Assembly: GCA_947466585.1 (NCBI GenBank)
Contig: CANIEU010000001.1
Span: forward strand, 298,414-362,413
Direction of reading: 5' to 3'
DNA length: 64,000 nt
Source: Fibrobacterota bacterium
GTDB lineage: Bacteria > Fibrobacterota > Fibrobacteria > UBA11236
This document shows positions 52,286 to 64,000 of the stretch, one piece after another (within the stretch, counting starts at the first letter, position 1; the number at the start of each line of letters is the position of its first letter). The position numbers and the translations under genes are program-made. The notes under the pieces are model-generated. The model did not search any database, was not told the DNA's origin, and saw only the letters and a program-made list of their open reading frames with translations.

Positions 52286-53695
52286 ATGCGCAAACACTTT
52301 CTGCTCGCCGGCCTCCTGCTTTCGCTTTCCCCTATTGCGGAGGTTCACGCCGCCCTACCCTATTCCGTGACGCTTCGGAATTATTTCGGCACGATGACTT
52401 TCCCGCGGTCGGTGCAGATGATTCCGTATCCCGGAGAAGACAGCGCCTTTGTAATCGTTCAACAGGCGGGCAAGCTCATGACGGTGCGCCGGGTGAATTC
52501 CGCTTGGGTTAAAACGGACTCGGCGTCCATCACCGTGCTGAACGGCAATAGCGGGACGAGCGAACAAGGGCTTCTCGGATTCACCTTTCATCCGAACTTC
52601 CGTCAGAACCGCAAGTACTACGCCTACTACATTGCGACGGGGGCGACCAACGGGTACGATCAACTCGTTGAGCGGACCATGGATTCCACACTGCGGCCTC
52701 ACAGTGGCGATGCACAGCGCACCATTCTCCGGCTTCTAGACCCCTACAACAACCACAACAGCGGTACCATCAAGTTCGGGTCGGACGGCTATCTCTATTT
52801 CGCCCTCGGCGACGGGGGAAGCGGCGGCGATCCGCAGAGCCGTGCACAGAATTTGGACAGTCTGTTCGGCAAATTCATGCGATTCGACGTCGATGGTGCG
52901 GATGCATTCCCCTCCGATTCGACGAAGAACTATGCCATTCCCGCCGACAATCCGTTTGTTGGTTCGGGCCGTCCCGAGATCTGGGCTTACGGTGTGCGCA
53001 ACCCGTTCCGCTGGACCTTTCATCCCGTGACAGGCGAAATCTGGGTGGGTGATGTGGGACAAGATTATCGCGAGGAAGTTTCCCATGTGACCAAGGGTGC
53101 CAACATGGGCTGGAAAATCATGGAGGCGAATACCTGCTACAACCCGGCGAGCGGAGGAAGCCCGTTGTCGAGTTGCAGCAATGCAGGCATGGTACTTCCG
53201 GTACTCACCACCTTGCGCGCGAAGGGGCAATCCATCACCGGCGGTGATTTCTTTTTCGGAAACCCGGCCTGCGCCTATCACGGCGTGTACTTCTACGGCG
53301 ACTATGCCTCCGACAGCCTCTGGGCTGCCCGCATCGTGAGCGATTCCGCTACCGAGAAGATTCGTATCGGTAGTTTGAATGGGGTCGCATCCTTCAACCT
53401 CGATAATCAGGGGCGCATCTTCGCCGTCAGCATGGACAACGGAACCATCAACATCCTAGAATCCCCTGACATGACTGCGGCACCGGTTTCGTTGCGCGCG
53501 AACAAACGCACCGGTTTTAGGCCGTTGCGCACAGAGGAACTGCTGCGGAATCCCGCAGCCTTTGAACTGCGCGGGCTCGACGGGCGCACGCTGCATGCGC
53601 CTGGGGCCGGTGCGGGTGCGGGAATACGCTCCGGTGTGGCTTGGGCCCGCAAAAAGAACAGCCAGGGTCCGGCACAATTGGTCGTGATTCCCTGA
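52286..53695 (+). CDS. Secreted PQQ-type sugar dehydrogenase, copy 1
   Basis: This is a 469-aa exported protein. A signal peptide (residues 1 to about 22, ending AEVHAA) precedes a six-bladed soluble glucose/sorbosone dehydrogenase fold: EQGLLGFTFHPNF, NNHNSGTIKFGSDGYLYFAL and GDGGSGGDPQSRAQN, then IWAYGVRNPFRWTFHP, GEIWVGDVGQD and GANMGWKIMEANTCY are the family blocks. These enzymes oxidise aldoses with PQQ. The last 90 residues are different: an RLR-rich linker, then FELRGLDGRTL and a basic end, which resembles a sorting domain. PQQ synthesis genes are not in view. Confidence 0.85.
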   Translation: MRKHFLLAGLLLSLSPIAEVHAALPYSVTLRNYFGTMTFPRSVQMIPYPGEDSAFVIVQQAGKLMTVRRVNSAWVKTDSASITVLNGNSGTSEQGLLGFTFHPNFRQNRKYYAYYIATGATNGYDQLVERTMDSTLRPHSGDAQRTILRLLDPYNNHNSGTIKFGSDGYLYFALGDGGSGGDPQSRAQNLDSLFGKFMRFDVDGADAFPSDSTKNYAIPADNPFVGSGRPEIWAYGVRNPFRWTFHPVTGEIWVGDVGQDYREEVSHVTKGANMGWKIMEANTCYNPASGGSPLSSCSNAGMVLPVLTTLRAKGQSITGGDFFFGNPACAYHGVYFYGDYASDSLWAARIVSDSATEKIRIGSLNGVASFNLDNQGRIFAVSMDNGTINILESPDMTAAPVSLRANKRTGFRPLRTEELLRNPAAFELRGLDGRTLHAPGAGAGAGIRSGVAWARKKNSQGPAQLVVIP

Positions 53696-53872: not shown

Positions 53873-55363
53873 GTGATCTTATTCAAAACCGTTTCCCGCA
53901 GATTGCCGCGCACCTTGCCGCGTACATCATCTTGGATGGCCGCCTTGTTGCTGTGCACCGGAGTGTCGCTCCTGCCCGTGCCGTCCACGGCCGCGGCCGC
54001 GTTCCCGAACACCGTGACCTTGCGCAATTATTTCAAGGTCGGCACCGATTCGCTGACCTTCAACCGTCCCGTGTCGGTAAAGCCCTACCCGAACGAAGAC
54101 AGCGCCTTCATCGTGGTGCAACAGAGCGGGCAGATTCTCACCGTACGGTGGAACGGAACGGCTTGGAGGCGCACCGATACGGCCACGGTCACGGTGCTCG
54201 CCGGCACCAGCGGCATCGACGAGCAGGGACTGCTCGGATTCACCTTTCATCCCGACTTTCTCACGAATCACAAGTATTACATCTATTACGTGGGCGGCAC
54301 GGCCTCGGCCCGCGGCGATATCATCGCCGAGCGCACGGCGGGTTCGTCGCTGCGTCCCGCGACCTCAGACGCTCAGCGTACGATACTGCGAATCTCCGAC
54401 CCGTACGACAATCACAACTCGGGCACCATCCTGTTCGATCAGGAAGGTTACCTGTTGTTCGGTATCGGCGACGGAGGCACCACCAGCGGCGACCCGCAGA
54501 ACCGCGCGCAAAACACCGACAGTCTGCTCGGAAAATTTTTGCGGTTCGACGTGAACGGAGCGGACGCATTCCCTTCCGACACTGCTCGCAACTACGCCAT
54601 TCCCGCCACCAACCCCTTCGTCAATATGGCGGGGTACAAGCCCGAGATCTGGGCCTACGGCGCGCGCAATCCGTGGAAGTGGACGCTGAATCCCGAGACC
54701 GGTACTGTCTGGGTCGGCGACGTGGGTCAGGACACCTGGGAGAAAGTCACGCGGGTGCCCAAGGGCGCGAACCTCGGCTGGCGTTTCCGCGAGGGCCCCG
54801 TGTGCTTCAACCCCACTACCAATTGTCCGAGCGACGGGATACTCTTCCCCGATCTTTCGCTGCGGGATTCCATCGCCACCGCGATCATCGGAGGGACTTT
54901 CTTTCATGCGGTACCCGGCACTCCGTTCGCCGGCTCCTACATCTTCGGCGACCACGGCACGAGCCGCATTTGGGCGGTGCGCGTGGAGGGAGACAGCCTC
55001 ATCGACTCGACGCTGACGCGGATCGGTACGCTCAACAAGCCGGTCTCGTTCGACCGCGACCGCCAGGGACGGGTACTCGTCACCACCATCAGCCCTTCGG
55101 TGGGCTTCGGCATCTCGTCGAACGTGGGGCGCGTGCTGGTACTCGAGTCGCCGGATATGGTACCCACCGCATTGACCTATCGGCCACAGCGCTCCGCGGT
55201 AGGTTCCGGATCCTTCCGGATGGATGAACGGCGCTCGCATCCGGAGCGCTTCAGGATTTTTGGACTTGACGGGCGCGAGATCCTTGGAACGCCTGCGGGG
55301 ACCTTCCTCGTGATCGAAAAGGCGAACCCGGCCCACCGCACCTTAATGACGGCGCTCTGGTAG
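53873..55363 (+). CDS. Secreted PQQ-type sugar dehydrogenase, copy 2
   Basis: This is a 496-aa paralogue of the preceding gene. It starts at a GTG with GGAG eight bases upstream. The N-terminus is a signal peptide with a long hydrophobic stretch (WMAALLLCTGVSLLPVP). Family blocks seen are EQGLLGFTFHPDF, NHNSGTILFDQEGYLLFGIG, DGGTTSGDPQNRAQN, IWAYGARNPWKWTLNP and GTVWVGDVGQDTWEKVT. The C-terminus again has F-R-I-F-G-L-D-G-R-E-I-L, parallel to FELRGLDGRTL of copy 1. The two genes probably arose by tandem duplication; they are separated by 177 bases with no clear terminator. Confidence 0.85.
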   Translation: MILFKTVSRRLPRTLPRTSSWMAALLLCTGVSLLPVPSTAAAAFPNTVTLRNYFKVGTDSLTFNRPVSVKPYPNEDSAFIVVQQSGQILTVRWNGTAWRRTDTATVTVLAGTSGIDEQGLLGFTFHPDFLTNHKYYIYYVGGTASARGDIIAERTAGSSLRPATSDAQRTILRISDPYDNHNSGTILFDQEGYLLFGIGDGGTTSGDPQNRAQNTDSLLGKFLRFDVNGADAFPSDTARNYAIPATNPFVNMAGYKPEIWAYGARNPWKWTLNPETGTVWVGDVGQDTWEKVTRVPKGANLGWRFREGPVCFNPTTNCPSDGILFPDLSLRDSIATAIIGGTFFHAVPGTPFAGSYIFGDHGTSRIWAVRVEGDSLIDSTLTRIGTLNKPVSFDRDRQGRVLVTTISPSVGFGISSNVGRVLVLESPDMVPTALTYRPQRSAVGSGSFRMDERRSHPERFRIFGLDGREILGTPAGTFLVIEKANPAHRTLMTALW

Positions 55364-57884: not shown

Positions 57885-60800
57885 TCAGGGCCCGAACCGG
57901 ACCGCTTTGTTGGTCACCGTGGCCGTTTTACCCGCTGCCGTTGCGGAGATGCGCACCATGTACATGCCGCCAGCTACCAGACGGCCGTTTTGATCGCGTC
58001 CATCCCAAGCCAGCTCACGCAGCTCCGTGCGCGGATCCACGCTTTGGCTCCAGACCGTACGGCCGGCAAGATCCGCAATCGTCACCACCACGTTCTCCGT
58101 GTTTGCATCCACCGTGGGCATGCGCAGGTTGTAGAGCGTCGTCCCGCCGGTTACCCGGAACGAGAAGGTGGCTTCCCCCGCAGGCTTTGCCATCGAGGTG
58201 ACGGCGACGCTCACCGTTTCGGTGTCGGACGAACCGGCCAGGCCGTTGGCCGTCACCATGTAGGTGCGCGGCGGCGAGAGATACACCGGAATACCCTGGA
58301 TCTTGCCCGTGATCGGACTGAACGTGAGTCCCGTATTCGCGGTGAGGCTGCTGCCGTTCGATCCGGGACCGATCAACCATCCGGTGATCGGGCCGCCGGC
58401 ATTGTCGGCGCGGAATGCTGTGACCGCCGCATTCTTCACGAACGTGTAGGGGCCGGCCGCGAAGCTCAGTACAGGCGGATTCGCCGTCGTCGCGATGTTC
58501 ACCGTGTCCTTGCCGATACCGCCGGGCCCTGTCGCCGTGATCACATAGTCGGTGGCGACCGTGACCACCGATGGCGTGCCGTTGATCTTGCCCGTGGTCG
58601 GATTGAACGTGAGACCCGCGGGCAAGGTGGGATTGATCGCGTAGCCGCTGACGATACCCGTCACGCCCGTTTTGGCCAGCGTGGAAATGAGTACCCCCAC
58701 AGGGTAAGCCATGGGGGTGTTGGGATAACTGACCGTGGGCGGGGGCGTGATCACCGCGATGTTGAGCGTATCCTTGCCGGTACCGCCGGGCCCCGTTGCG
58801 GTGACCACGTAATCGGTTGCAGCGGAAAGTATCGAAGGCGTACCGCCGATGGCGCCCGTCACCGTACTGAACACCAGACCAGCCGGAAGGGTCGGACTGA
58901 CCGTGTAGCCGGTGATGATGCCCGTCGCACCCGTCTTGGTCACCAATGCGATCGCAGCATTCAGCGGAAAGCTCAAGGGCGTGTTGCTGTAACTCACCGT
59001 GGGCGCCGGCGCAAAAGTGCGAATGTTGACGCTATCGCGCCCGGTGCCGCCGGGGCCCATCGCCGTGATGGTGTACCACATCGCCGGTTGCATGGCGGTG
59101 GGTGTCCCGCCGATCGCGCCTGTCACCGTGCTGAACATCAATCCCGACGGAAGTGCAGGCAAGATCGAGTATCCGCTGATGATCCCGCTGGCACTTGTTT
59201 TGGTGAGCGTTGGAATCGCGACACCCAGCAGATATTCGAGCGGTGTATGACCATAGTTGACTATGGGCGCCGGAGTCGAGGTGCGGATGCTGACGGTATC
59301 GCACCCCGTGCCTCCGGGGCCGGTGGCCGTAATGATGTAGTCCGTCGGCGGTGTGACCGTCGTGGGAGTGCCCTCGATACGTCCCGTGATCGTGCTGAAC
59401 CCGAGACCCTGCGGCAAAGCCGGGCTGATGGAATACCCGTTGATCATGCCCGTGGCAAACGTCTTGGAGAGCGGCGCTATCGCCACACCAAGGAGGTAGT
59501 TCTGCGGAGTGTTGTCGTAACTCACGGTGGGAGCTTGGGCGATGGTGGCGATGCGGACCACCGCTCCGCCCGAAGTTCCGCCGAAGCCTGTGGCCGTGAC
59601 GGTGTAATCGGTCGCAGAGGACAGATATACCGGCGTACCGGATATTTTCCCTGTCACGGTACTAAAAAATAAACCTGTGGCCGCATTGAGGTTCGGCGAG
59701 ATCGACCACCCGGAAACGCTTCCGCCCGCATTGACCGGACCCAAACCCGCGATCGCAGATCCGATCACGAAGGTGTGGGGCGAGGGATACGAGATCGCCG
59801 GCGGAACGGCCGAGGTCTCAATGTTCACGACGGTGCGATCCATGTGCCCGGCTTCATCTAGTGCCGTCACCACATAGTCCCGGGGAGGCGAAACGTAAAC
59901 GGGAGTTCCGACCAGACGCCCCGTGATGGTATTGATCAGCAACCCCGTGTAGGTCGTCAGGTTGGGTTCGATGCTCCAGATCATTCCGGGCGTACCGGTA
60001 TTGGTCGCCGGCAGGTTGACCGTGGAGCCCATGTCGAAGCGGAGTGGGCCTCCGGGATAACTCACCACCGGAGACGGCCCCGGGAAAACGGGTTCCGAAG
60101 CCGCCGAAGCGTCTCCCTCGCCGTTCAGATTGGCGGCGGCCACAGTAAACGTGTAGGGCGACCTGTTGGTGAGTCCTGTGATCGTGCACGAGTTGGGTGC
60201 CGTGATCGGAACATCGATCGGTACGCACTGTGCGCCCCCTGGCGATGCCGTTGCGCGATAACCCGTCACGGGTGAACCGCCGTCGCTCACCGGTGCGATC
60301 CAGGACAGGAATACTTTTCCGTCGCCCGCGCGCGCCAACAGATTGCGGGGCGGCCCCGGCGGACCTTGCGGAATCACCGATGACGAAGCGACCGAGGGTT
60401 TTCCCGCACCGGCCAGATTGCGTGCCATCACTTCGAAGCGGTATTCCACTCCGTTGCGGAGTCCGCTTACGGTGCAGATCAACGGTCCGCTGCTCCATAA
60501 GCACGTGGCGCTGTCGGGCAAAGAACGCACGATAAATTCCGTCACAGCTGCACCGCTATCGGAGACGGGAGGAGACCAGGTTACCTGAGCCGAACCGTTG
60601 CCGACAAGCGCGAAGACTCCGGTCGGCGGGCCGGGAGGTACGGCGACCGCCAATAGGAGCGTGTCGTAAGCGTTTCCGGAACCGTTTTGCGCCGAAACGA
60701 CATAAGCCGTGGCGGCTTTTGAAGCCAGCGGCGTCCCGGTAATCACACCCGTGTTGGGATTGAAGGTGAGCCCGGAGGGCAAAGCCGGAGTCACGGAAAA

Positions 60801-63800
60801 TTGGGTTACGAATCCGCTCACCGAAGGTGTGTTGGAGGCGATGGTCGTACCGCGCAGATAACTGGCGCTACGCACGGGGTAGACCAGGCTTGTAGGCGCA
60901 GCGGGCGGCGTGCGGATATTGGCGATCTCCCACACGGCGATGGAATCCTGCGCCAGTTCGGAGGGACCGCGCGCCGTTTTGCTGCAGGTGGAATACCCTT
61001 GGGGCGTGAGATTCTGCGCATCGCACGAGGTGACGAGCGAATCGTTGAAGGCCACGCGGATATAGGTGAGTACCGAGGCCAGATCTTCATTGGAGACACT
61101 GGCGCGATTGCTCATACTGCCGGTATACACTTGACCGTTGACGGTGATCGCGCCCGAAATGCCGTGCATCAATACGTCGGCGGGCCGCAGCCGGATCGCC
61201 ATGAACCAATCGGAATACGCCAACGGCGGACGGGCGCCCACACCGCCGGGTGCGCCGGCACCGGTCGATCCGTGACAACCGGAACAACGCAGGGTGTAAA
61301 CGTCGGCACCCCGCGCCAACAAATTCGCGCGCGGAATGTAGAGCGGATTGTAGTTCACCGCCATCACCACGGAGGCCGTGTCGAGGCCGCCAGGCCCTTG
61401 CGCCCGGATGCGATACGTTCCCGACGCGGCATAAGCCGTGGGTGTGCCGGTGATCGCACCGTTCGCCGTATTCAACGTCAACCCCGCCGGCAGTGCGTCG
61501 AGCGCGACGTAGTCCGTCACGGGCCCGCCCGTACTCTGGGGGCTCAGCGTCGCGATGGCCGTTCCGAGGGTGTAGGCGGCGGGGTTCGTATAGGCCACAA
61601 CCGGTACCGGCTCGGCCACGAGGATCTGCACCGAGAACGTATCCACCCCGGCCACATTGGTGGCGGTGACGCGATACCCGCTTTGCGCGGCTGCGGTGGT
61701 GGGGGTTCCGCTGAGTACGCCGGTGGAGGTATTGAGGTCGATGCCTGTGGGCAAAGCGTCCAATGCGGCATAGGACGATACGGGGCCTCCAGCTGAGACA
61801 GGTGCGAGCGGTGTGATGGCCGCACCCGAAGTCCAGGAAACGGGAGAGGAGTAGGTGATGTCGGGCGCGTTGATCACGGTGACCGCCAGGGTGGCCCCGG
61901 TCGACCACGAGCTGTCACTCCACGCGGTGACGGTCACAGCAAACGCGCCCGCGACCAACGGAGTACCGGTGATCGCGCCAGTGGACGCATTGAGGGAAAG
62001 GCCCGCGGGAAGACCCGTCGCCGTATAGCGCGAAGCTGTTCCCATCAGTGTGGCGGTGTTGGAGGTGACGGTCTTGCCCACACCGTAAACCGGTGCCGGA
62101 ACCGTATAGGCGAGATCGGTCAGCGGAATGTTGCCGGGCTTTTGGTTCTTGTAACCCAAACGCAGAAAATAGGCACTGCGCGGCACGGCGGATATGCGAA
62201 TCTCGTCCAGATCGCCGGACCAGTACCGGTGACTGGTGGTGCTGTTGTGAAAACGGCCCATGCTCCAGCCCGTTGCGGTGGCCGCCGGACCCGCCGCAGT
62301 AGTCGGGGAAGACGCGGCGATCTGCACGCCGTTGCGGTAAAGGCGCCAGGCCTTATTGGTATTGCTCACGCTGTCGTAAACACCCGCGAGATGCACCCAT
62401 TGCAGACTGTCCCCATAGGAGGCCGGCCCGCTGGGCGAAGCAGCGAGAACGTCCGCGCTCCCCGTGTATTTTCCCGTTTGGTAAAGATACGGCGAGGCGT
62501 TGTTGATGCGCAAAAACATTTCCGCCGTGTTTCCCGTAGTGCCGTTGCGTTGAATCACCGTGCGGTAGAAGCTGCTGCCGGTCGTCGGGCGGATGCGATT
62601 CCAACGTACCCACGACTCCATCGTGATGTTGCCCCCGATATTCAATGCGGAGGGGTTTCCGACGTTGATGAATTGCGCATTCGTCAAGGTGTTGTTCGCC
62701 GCGTTCGCTCCGGCGAAGTTGCGGGCGGGACCGGAAATACCGGTCGTAGTGGTAGTGCCGGTGTCGGTGCCGACGATAGCGTTCGAGGTGACATCCGTCA
62801 CGTTCCCGGAGGCTTCGGACATGTGCCAAACGGCGCGATACCCGTTCGCTGCCGTGAACACGCGCGACCCGTTCGATTCGCTCACGGCGGATGCATTGCC
62901 GTAGTGCAAACGTACCGGAGTTGCTGCCGCGCCGTACACCGTATCAAGCAACACCCACACCGCTGCGGTCTGCCCCGCCGTGTTCCAGGATTCGATCTCG
63001 TAATCGAGCGGCGAGCCGTCGGGTTTGGAGAAGCGCACATCGGCCCCGCCCGTTTTTGCGCCCGTGAAGATGGCTGCGTGCACCGAGGACAACCGGATCA
63101 ATACCGGAATTCTTCCCACGCCCGCCGCAACCCCCGCGCCGGTGGTGGTGGTATTCAGCTCGAAAGTTTTGGTATTCGTCCACGATGCATAGGGATTACT
63201 CACCACCACACCGTTCACCTTGAGGTTCACGGAGGCAGTCGTCGAACCCGTACCATTGGAGGCGGTAACCGTATAGTTCGTCGCGGGAGACGATCCGATG
63301 GGAGTACCCGAAATTATTCCAGTCACAGAATCCAGCACAATGCCAGAGGGCAACGACGGAGACACCGCGTAACGCGTGGGGACACCCGTAATACTGGGTG
63401 TATTGGCTGTGATGGTTACATTCACATCGTATACGGCGACGGGCTGGGAATACGACAGTGCCGAAGGCGCCATGGGCGCCACGACGATCGAAAGTGTGTC
63501 CGAGGCACTGGTGTCGGGAAAGGTAGCCGTGACCACGTAGGTATCCGAAACACTGGCGGTCAGGGGAGTACCGCCGATCACACCCGTGGTTGCGTTTAAG
63601 GAAATTCCGGATGGTAGCGGTTTGTTCAATGTGAAGCTGGTGGGAGTGCCTAATGCGGGGTTGAGGAAGGGAACGTTGGAAGGGATCGAGGTGCCCTGCG
63701 TGTAGCTCCCTGTTCGGCTCGGATACCGGACCGTAAAGTTGTCGGCGTTACAGTTTCCGATATAATCGACGCGTACGATGGCAGGGTTGTTGGCCGGGCT

Positions 63801-64000
63801 CGCGACGTACTGTCCCCCGCCGTAGTAGAGGAAATACAGCGCCCCGTCGGGGCCGTACTTCGCCTGCAGGGCGTTGCGCAGGGTTCCCACCGCCGAGAAC
63901 AGGCGACCCGTACCGTCGACCCGCTGTGTTCCCGAAAGCGTCACTGTCGTCGGATCGATACTGTGGATGTAGGCCTCGCCGCCCAACTCGCTGAACACCA
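57885..64000 (-). CDS. Giant secreted dehydrogenase-cytochrome-Ig repeat protein, C-terminal part
   Basis: The 2037+ aa frame continues beyond the window. Numbering from 63998: residues 1-84 end a sugar dehydrogenase (KYGPDGALYFLYYGGG). Two putative-Ig (He_PIG) repeats follow, then a DUF2341 domain (about 268-395), a LamG/concanavalin-like domain (to about 625) and three more Ig repeats. A cytochrome c-like segment has CSGCH at residues 905-909 (bases 61272-61286). Next come one Ig repeat, two fibronectin type III domains (about 1119-1310), seven Ig repeats of 80-95 aa, and a final 100 residues with VVVTIADLAGRTVWSQ and ELAWDGRDQNGRLVAGGMY, a FlgD-like or type IX sorting domain. The protein is probably surface-anchored and may oxidise sugars and pass electrons to haem. 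Confidence 0.85.
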   Translation of the reverse strand, partial: VFSELGGEAYIHSIDPTTVTLSGTQRVDGTGRLFSAVGTLRNALQAKYGPDGALYFLYYGGGQYVASPANNPAIVRVDYIGNCNADNFTVRYPSRTGSYTQGTSIPSNVPFLNPALGTPTSFTLNKPLPSGISLNATTGVIGGTPLTASVSDTYVVTATFPDTSASDTLSIVVAPMAPSALSYSQPVAVYDVNVTITANTPSITGVPTRYAVSPSLPSGIVLDSVTGIISGTPIGSSPATNYTVTASNGTGSTTASVNLKVNGVVVSNPYASWTNTKTFELNTTTTGAGVAAGVGRIPVLIRLSSVHAAIFTGAKTGGADVRFSKPDGSPLDYEIESWNTAGQTAAVWVLLDTVYGAAATPVRLHYGNASAVSESNGSRVFTAANGYRAVWHMSEASGNVTDVTSNAIVGTDTGTTTTTGISGPARNFAGANAANNTLTNAQFINVGNPSALNIGGNITMESWVRWNRIRPTTGSSFYRTVIQRNGTTGNTAEMFLRINNASPYLYQTGKYTGSADVLAASPSGPASYGDSLQWVHLAGVYDSVSNTNKAWRLYRNGVQIAASSPTTAAGPAATATGWSMGRFHNSTTSHRYWSGDLDEIRISAVPRSAYFLRLGYKNQKPGNIPLTDLAYTVPAPVYGVGKTVTSNTATLMGTASRYTATGLPAGLSLNASTGAITGTPLVAGAFAVTVTAWSDSSWSTGATLAVTVINAPDITYSSPVSWTSGAAITPLAPVSAGGPVSSYAALDALPTGIDLNTSTGVLSGTPTTAAAQSGYRVTATNVAGVDTFSVQILVAEPVPVVAYTNPAAYTLGTAIATLSPQSTGGPVTDYVALDALPAGLTLNTANGAITGTPTAYAASGTYRIRAQGPGGLDTASVVMAVNYNPLYIPRANLLARGADVYTLRCSGCHGSTGAGAPGGVGARPPLAYSDWFMAIRLRPADVLMHGISGAITVNGQVYTGSMSNRASVSNEDLASVLTYIRVAFNDSLVTSCDAQNLTPQGYSTCSKTARGPSELAQDSIAVWEIANIRTPPAAPTSLVYPVRSASYLRGTTIASNTPSVSGFVTQFSVTPALPSGLTFNPNTGVITGTPLASKAATAYVVSAQNGSGNAYDTLLLAVAVPPGPPTGVFALVGNGSAQVTWSPPVSDSGAAVTEFIVRSLPDSATCLWSSGPLICTVSGLRNGVEYRFEVMARNLAGAGKPSVASSSVIPQGPPGPPRNLLARAGDGKVFLSWIAPVSDGGSPVTGYRATASPGGAQCVPIDVPITAPNSCTITGLTNRSPYTFTVAAANLNGEGDASAASEPVFPGPSPVVSYPGGPLRFDMGSTVNLPATNTGTPGMIWSIEPNLTTYTGLLINTITGRLVGTPVYVSPPRDYVVTALDEAGHMDRTVVNIETSAVPPAISYPSPHTFVIGSAIAGLGPVNAGGSVSGWSISPNLNAATGLFFSTVTGKISGTPVYLSSATDYTVTATGFGGTSGGAVVRIATIAQAPTVSYDNTPQNYLLGVAIAPLSKTFATGMINGYSISPALPQGLGFSTITGRIEGTPTTVTPPTDYIITATGPGGTGCDTVSIRTSTPAPIVNYGHTPLEYLLGVAIPTLTKTSASGIISGYSILPALPSGLMFSTVTGAIGGTPTAMQPAMWYTITAMGPGGTGRDSVNIRTFAPAPTVSYSNTPLSFPLNAAIALVTKTGATGIITGYTVSPTLPAGLVFSTVTGAIGGTPSILSAATDYVVTATGPGGTGKDTLNIAVITPPPTVSYPNTPMAYPVGVLISTLAKTGVTGIVSGYAINPTLPAGLTFNPTTGKINGTPSVVTVATDYVITATGPGGIGKDTVNIATTANPPVLSFAAGPYTFVKNAAVTAFRADNAGGPITGWLIGPGSNGSSLTANTGLTFSPITGKIQGIPVYLSPPRTYMVTANGLAGSSDTETVSVAVTSMAKPAGEATFSFRVTGGTTLYNLRMPTVDANTENVVVTIADLAGRTVWSQSVDPRTELRELAWDGRDQNGRLVAGGMYMVRISATAAGKTATVTNKAVRFGP

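Follow-up and report, generated by a model that had tools for sequence, protein, structure and literature searches.

A giant Fibrobacterota protein joining a divergent GSDH propeller to a monohaem cytochrome c

Smaller natural fusions of GSDH domains to cytochromes are already present in the databases. The nearest known kind is a PQQ-dependent sugar dehydrogenase of Runella slithyformis (WP_013921610.1; 863 aa), with the order GSDH-PKD-cytochrome c-CBM6. A fungal counterpart is the quinohaemoprotein pyranose dehydrogenase of Coprinopsis cinerea (CAZy AA12; AA8-AA12-CBM1): this is a single secreted chain with a b-type AA8 haem at the N-terminus, a PQQ propeller and a carbohydrate-binding module (PMC4332668, PMC6881810). 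Further described proteins relevant here are: Cellvibrio japonicus Cbp2D, a large secreted bacterial protein with CBM2, YceI-like, fn3 and two c-type cytochrome domains (PMC8981238); the three-domain NirK-cytochrome c nitrite reductase (PDB 3ziy, 2zoo); and a PKD-domain protein of Leisingera sp. M527 (WP_260008609.1; 1813 aa), a giant protein in which GSDH is combined with Ig-like and LamG modules. The literature that we searched on PQQ sugar dehydrogenase-cytochrome-PKD proteins and on T9SS-sorted cytochromes yielded nothing useful. Such proteins bear on the open question of the means by which extracellular sugar oxidation is linked to electron carriers in bacteria.

Here we describe a giant protein encoded by a 2.24 Mb, 98% complete Fibrobacterota genome (G000). 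The window, i.e. the whole stretch of 64,000 nucleotides that was analysed (G000:C1:298414-362413), holds the 3' 82% of its gene.

Gene, domain architecture and export

A first-pass annotation of the window had recognized one frame of at least 6.1 kb and proposed reading the rest of the gene. Reading the contig to its end, beyond the window, yields a single unbroken minus-strand frame, with its true start 1.27 kb past the window edge, and recovers the N-terminal GSDH propeller. The first ATG of the frame (L002:13753) overlaps an intrinsic-terminator-like hairpin (CCCCGAG...CTCGGGG then T7) behind the tandem neighbour; the ATG at L002:13681, with GAGAGGG before it and a signal peptide after it, is the better start. 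Residues are numbered here from the first of these two ATGs, except where the 2460-aa length is meant. The features are as follows (window coordinates unless prefixed by L002):

L002:6299-13681, minus strand: full giant gene (2460 aa, counted from the ATG that GAGAGGG precedes), with signal peptide MTLMKRFLVLAAVVALGSATEVHAQ
57885..63998, minus strand: visible part of the giant gene, an open frame
63735..63998, minus strand: GSDH propeller, C-terminal end (residues ~448-535); its remainder, with the site residues His and Arg, falls outside the window
62847..63044, minus strand: DUF2341 (residues 765-830; Pfam 1.2e-11)
61995..62846, minus strand: LamG/ConA-like domain by similarity to L097, running at its end into the beginning of a He_PIG repeat
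60900..61337, minus strand: monohaem cytochrome c with a lineage-typical C-terminal extension (Pfam Cytochrom_C 26.0 bits, cut-off 21.3; residues 1342-1428)
61272..61286, minus strand: CSGCH haem attachment motif (residues 1352-1356)
61113..61115, minus strand: likely distal haem ligand Met (GSM)
60060..60608, minus strand: two fn3 domains (Pfam 3.4e-23, two stretches)
58158..60059, minus strand: C-terminal He_PIG array, seven of the 13 copies in the whole protein (Pfam, motif)
57888..58157, minus strand: FlgD_ig/T9SS-like tail (FlgD_ig residues 2408-2469)
52286..53695, plus strand: stand-alone GSDH protein (Pfam), a relative encoded apart from the giant gene, its His and Arg-Asn motifs intact
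53873..55363, plus strand: second stand-alone GSDH protein (Pfam), likewise a relative encoded apart from the giant gene, its His and Arg-Asn motifs intact

The order in the protein is thus signal peptide, N-terminal GSDH propeller, He_PIG repeats, DUF2341-LamG, three He_PIG repeats, cytochrome c, two fn3 domains, He_PIG array and FlgD_ig tail. The GSDH domain is detected by Pfam at residues 107-277 (PF07995; 48.7 bits, cut-off 25), and comparison with relatives extends the propeller to residue ~535. Pfam makes no LamG call in the giant protein itself; the LamG region together with DUF2341 matches the relative L097 (phmmer 2e-38), which is called Laminin_G_3 (2e-14). Hence the CSGCH motif, LamG-like domain, DUF2341 and pair of fibronectin domains listed in the first-pass annotation are all present, and its count of about 13 putative-Ig repeats corresponds to 13 He_PIG copies by motif and 11 significant Pfam stretches. 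Its assignment of the end of a PQQ-type dehydrogenase to the window stands for the GSDH family, with the qualification that just the last ~90 residues lie there and the catalytic part outside. Its placement of the haem near the dehydrogenase does not hold: ~820 residues (He_PIG, DUF2341-LamG and three further He_PIG repeats) separate the propeller from the haem motif. The two are non-adjacent in the chain, and contact between them could be made by the chain folding back. A chance open frame was ruled out, as seven domain families match in the one frame (Pfam).

Upstream of the giant gene and beyond the right edge of the window lies the C-terminus of a tandem paralogue (L002:13833-15347), with a He_PIG array and with a tail that is 74% identical to that of the giant. 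Its frame is truncated by the contig end, and the terminator-like hairpin stands between the two genes; contig C2 was considered as its continuation and rejected on inspection of the C2 start. The two stand-alone GSDH genes, earlier described as paralogues 3-5 kb upstream, read in the opposite direction and lie past the 3' end of the giant gene; they are related to its GSDH domain at the family level only. GSDH proteins are strongly expanded in this Fibrobacterota family (G155-G163), with 12-14 places per genome among the matches listed and, at first look, as many as 80 candidates in G157; some of these GSDHs are in far longer frames.

For the tail, FlgD_ig scores above its cut-off (32.3 vs 27 bits) and no T9SS sorting-domain profile does so; Por_Secre_tail (20 vs 23) and CHU_C (15.5 vs 27) appear below cut-off in the tandem paralogue only. 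About a dozen matches to this tail are found in the genome, mostly ending otherwise different frames, a placement that would resemble that of a sorting module. The sorting-type C-terminus proposed at first pass corresponds to this recurrent FlgD_ig tail, a putative sorting module. Of the T9SS core, SprA is encoded in the genome (TIGR04189; best stretch 465 bits), along with two cytochrome c assembly proteins (Cytochrom_C_asm, above cut-off), 19 cytochrome c places and two haem-copper oxidases (COX1). With SprA, assembly proteins and oxidases at hand, export and haem loading are feasible, and the giant protein is predicted to be exported and probably surface-attached. In the same genome, L146:2097-4349 (G000:C2) resembles a subtilase-type protease at its start, changes abruptly to He_PIG repeats with a FlgD-like tail, and is possibly a truncated mosaic.

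The haem site and the GSDH active site

The two cysteines and the histidine of CSGCH are invariant in the cytochrome alignment, and the Met is aligned in eight of the nine sequences. In the PDB the best matches are cytochromes that transfer electrons, namely the C-terminal one tethered to three-domain NirK (1e-14) and Thermus c552 (5e-11). We take the c-type haem site with its distal Met to be genuine on account of these ligands; the absence of haem ligands or maturation genes, named at first pass as evidence against electron transfer, is contradicted by CSGCH, the Met and the two assembly proteins. The domain groups with the lipoprotein-like, He_PIG-linked and NirK-linked cytochromes of its own lineage. 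NirK-cytochrome c fusions with the same cytochrome class occur in this genome and relatives (L098:16835-18412, L106:197-1696), and sister genomes encode lipoprotein-like proteins that join He_PIG to cytochrome c and lack GSDH (L093:8639-10066 of G161, L094:8676-9821 of G163). L101:3-710, at the start of G000:C24, couples an Ig-like domain to the same class, with the distal Met absent (GTSPAF).

In the literature, His144 of sGDH is discussed as the catalytic base, Arg228/Asn229 are placed around the PQQ ketones, and the Arg/Asx pair is conserved in ~94% of AA12 (PMC6881810). A profile of 31 relatives of the giant's GSDH domain aligns with Acinetobacter sGDH at 8e-19. The equivalents of His144 and Arg228 are invariant in all 31, i.e. 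two of the three catalytic residues are kept; at the Asn229 position, by contrast, the giant and its entire subclade (~46-56% identical) have Ser. Arg-Asn is retained in more distant GSDH paralogues and in both stand-alone genes of the window. The position of the Gly-Pro motif, which in sGDH we take to be near the Ca site and at which the Ca ligands are main-chain atoms, reads Asn-Tyr in the giant. The equivalents of Lys377, Arg406 and Arg408, presumably the basic PQQ contacts of sGDH, are not conserved in what is a weak part of the alignment; these comparisons, Gly-Pro included, are weaker than the 31-relative profile match. A missing dehydrogenase active site, the other objection foreseen at first pass, is thereby half borne out: His and Arg remain, Asn has become Ser, and other PQQ/Ca positions appear to diverge. 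The alignments do not support an intact canonical PQQ site in the giant: the active site is, by its predicted residues, partly altered. Catalysis by this domain is therefore uncertain, and surface sugar oxidation plausible, unproven.

PqqC was not found in this genome or its genus in a search over the phylum in which G158 gave a clear match as positive control, and PQQ would thus have to be scavenged. This is not fatal to the idea, because E. coli and fungi also use PQQ that they do not make. Among related genomes pqqC is clear in one only (L143, G158:C65:6771-7439), though all of them carry many GSDH proteins.

Distribution and possible functions of the fusion

Across 168 Fibrobacterota genomes, relatives of the giant's GSDH domain occur in a single family plus one additional genome from the same order. 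Apart from the giant, each is a stand-alone frame no longer than 733 aa, and no other GSDH-cytochrome fusion was seen in the frames of these genomes; CxxCH was absent from every GSDH frame inspected in the wider family search, which covered a subset of frames. A contig scan with the GSDH domain for its distribution outside Fibrobacterota gave one locus only. Gemmatirosa may have a similar protein, but there the GSDH part and the CLACH part fall in separate frames. The Runella GSDH is homologous end to end and of the same subfamily (29%, 4e-42). The Runella cytochrome falls outside the clade of the giant's and was not matched in a search with it. Since the cytochromes are of different classes and the giant's is of its own lineage, the two fusions look independently assembled. 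Such an apparently independent GSDH-Ig-cytochrome c fusion in another phylum argues for functional coupling, and this convergence is the best argument for it. What speaks most strongly against it is how freely He_PIG, LamG and tails are shuffled in this lineage: as He_PIG is joined to cytochromes without GSDH too, the giant's fusion may not mean coupling.

Our preferred reading, held tentatively and at somewhat less than even odds, is that the divergent GSDH propeller oxidises a sugar at the surface with scavenged PQQ and that the tethered haem relays the electrons to another surface carrier. The giant would then be a mosaic surface protein, Sec-exported and probably T9SS-delivered, whose propeller would act outside the outer membrane; the LamG-like and Ig/fn3 modules would bind it to carbohydrate and space its parts, and the monohaem cytochrome (NirK-tether/c552 class) would accept electrons, perhaps upon contact with the propeller, and pass them to a further surface redox partner. 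Surface sugar oxidation coupled to electron transfer had been suggested at first pass. It retains the exported multidomain protein, haem site, SprA, assembly genes, terminal oxidases and Runella fusion in its favour and loses haem proximity and a canonical PQQ site, coupling being what we infer from the remainder.

Nearly as likely is that the propeller is a non-catalytic binding module in a large adhesin, like the homologous propeller of hedgehog-interacting protein, which is among the solved-structure matches of the GSDH domain, and that the cytochrome was gained by domain shuffling. This would fit the half-lost Arg/Asx dyad across the subclade, the other, apparently changed PQQ/Ca positions, the ready exchange of DUF2341-LamG, He_PIG and FlgD tails in the lineage, and the PqqC search result in this genome. 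Against it, the general-base His and the Arg are invariant in the 31 relatives, beyond the need of a pure scaffold, and the cytochrome retains all its ligands.

It is unlikely that the cytochrome serves another partner (a surface nitrite reductase, other cytochromes, oxygen or metals) in place of the GSDH on its own chain. In its favour, cytochromes of the same class are tethered to NirK here and in related genomes, and others sit in GSDH-free proteins of the lipoprotein-like and He_PIG-cytochrome kinds; the sequence distance from haem to propeller is also large. Against it, Bacteroidota have a GSDH-cytochrome fusion too, one whose cytochrome belongs to a different class.

More speculatively still, and with a rather low probability, the Arg-Ser-Asn site may have been rebuilt in a lineage-specific GSDH subclade for a new cofactor geometry or substrate, and its fusion to a surface cytochrome, made independently in this species, would yield a bacterial protein, displayed through T9SS, that is analogous to the quinohaemoprotein dehydrogenases of fungi. 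Finally, that an assembly chimera fused separate genes is highly improbable: the fusion is present in this genome only, the gene has repeats and a contig end is nearby, but the 7.4 kb is a single open frame with even GC and GC3, and the cytochrome directly follows a He_PIG repeat likewise in two sister genomes.

Returning to the preferred reading, GSDH-cytochrome fusions, if independently assembled in two phyla, would be candidates for coupling extracellular sugar oxidation to electron carriers, testable by domain.

Comparison with known systems

The giant carries GSDH, an Ig-like spacer and cytochrome c on one chain, as in the Runella-type fusion. It shares with WP_013921610.1 an N-terminal GSDH of the same subfamily, the Ig-like spacer, a monohaem cytochrome c and a carbohydrate-binding module. 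The Runella protein differs in its canonical Arg-Asn dyad (Arg-Ser in the giant), in the class of its cytochrome and in its far shorter chain; its PKD and CBM6 domains are replaced by He_PIG, LamG, fn3 and a FlgD-like tail. The Coprinopsis enzyme is alike in module kinds, whereas it is fungal, has a b-type haem and belongs to a family in which the dyad half lost in the giant is largely conserved. Cbp2D likewise combines carbohydrate-binding, fn3 and cytochrome c modules; it is without a GSDH domain and its accessory domains differ. The NirK fusions have the same tethered cytochrome class, with copper nitrite reductase where the giant has GSDH, and the Leisingera protein matches it in giant size, GSDH, Ig-like and LamG modules and has no CxxCH.
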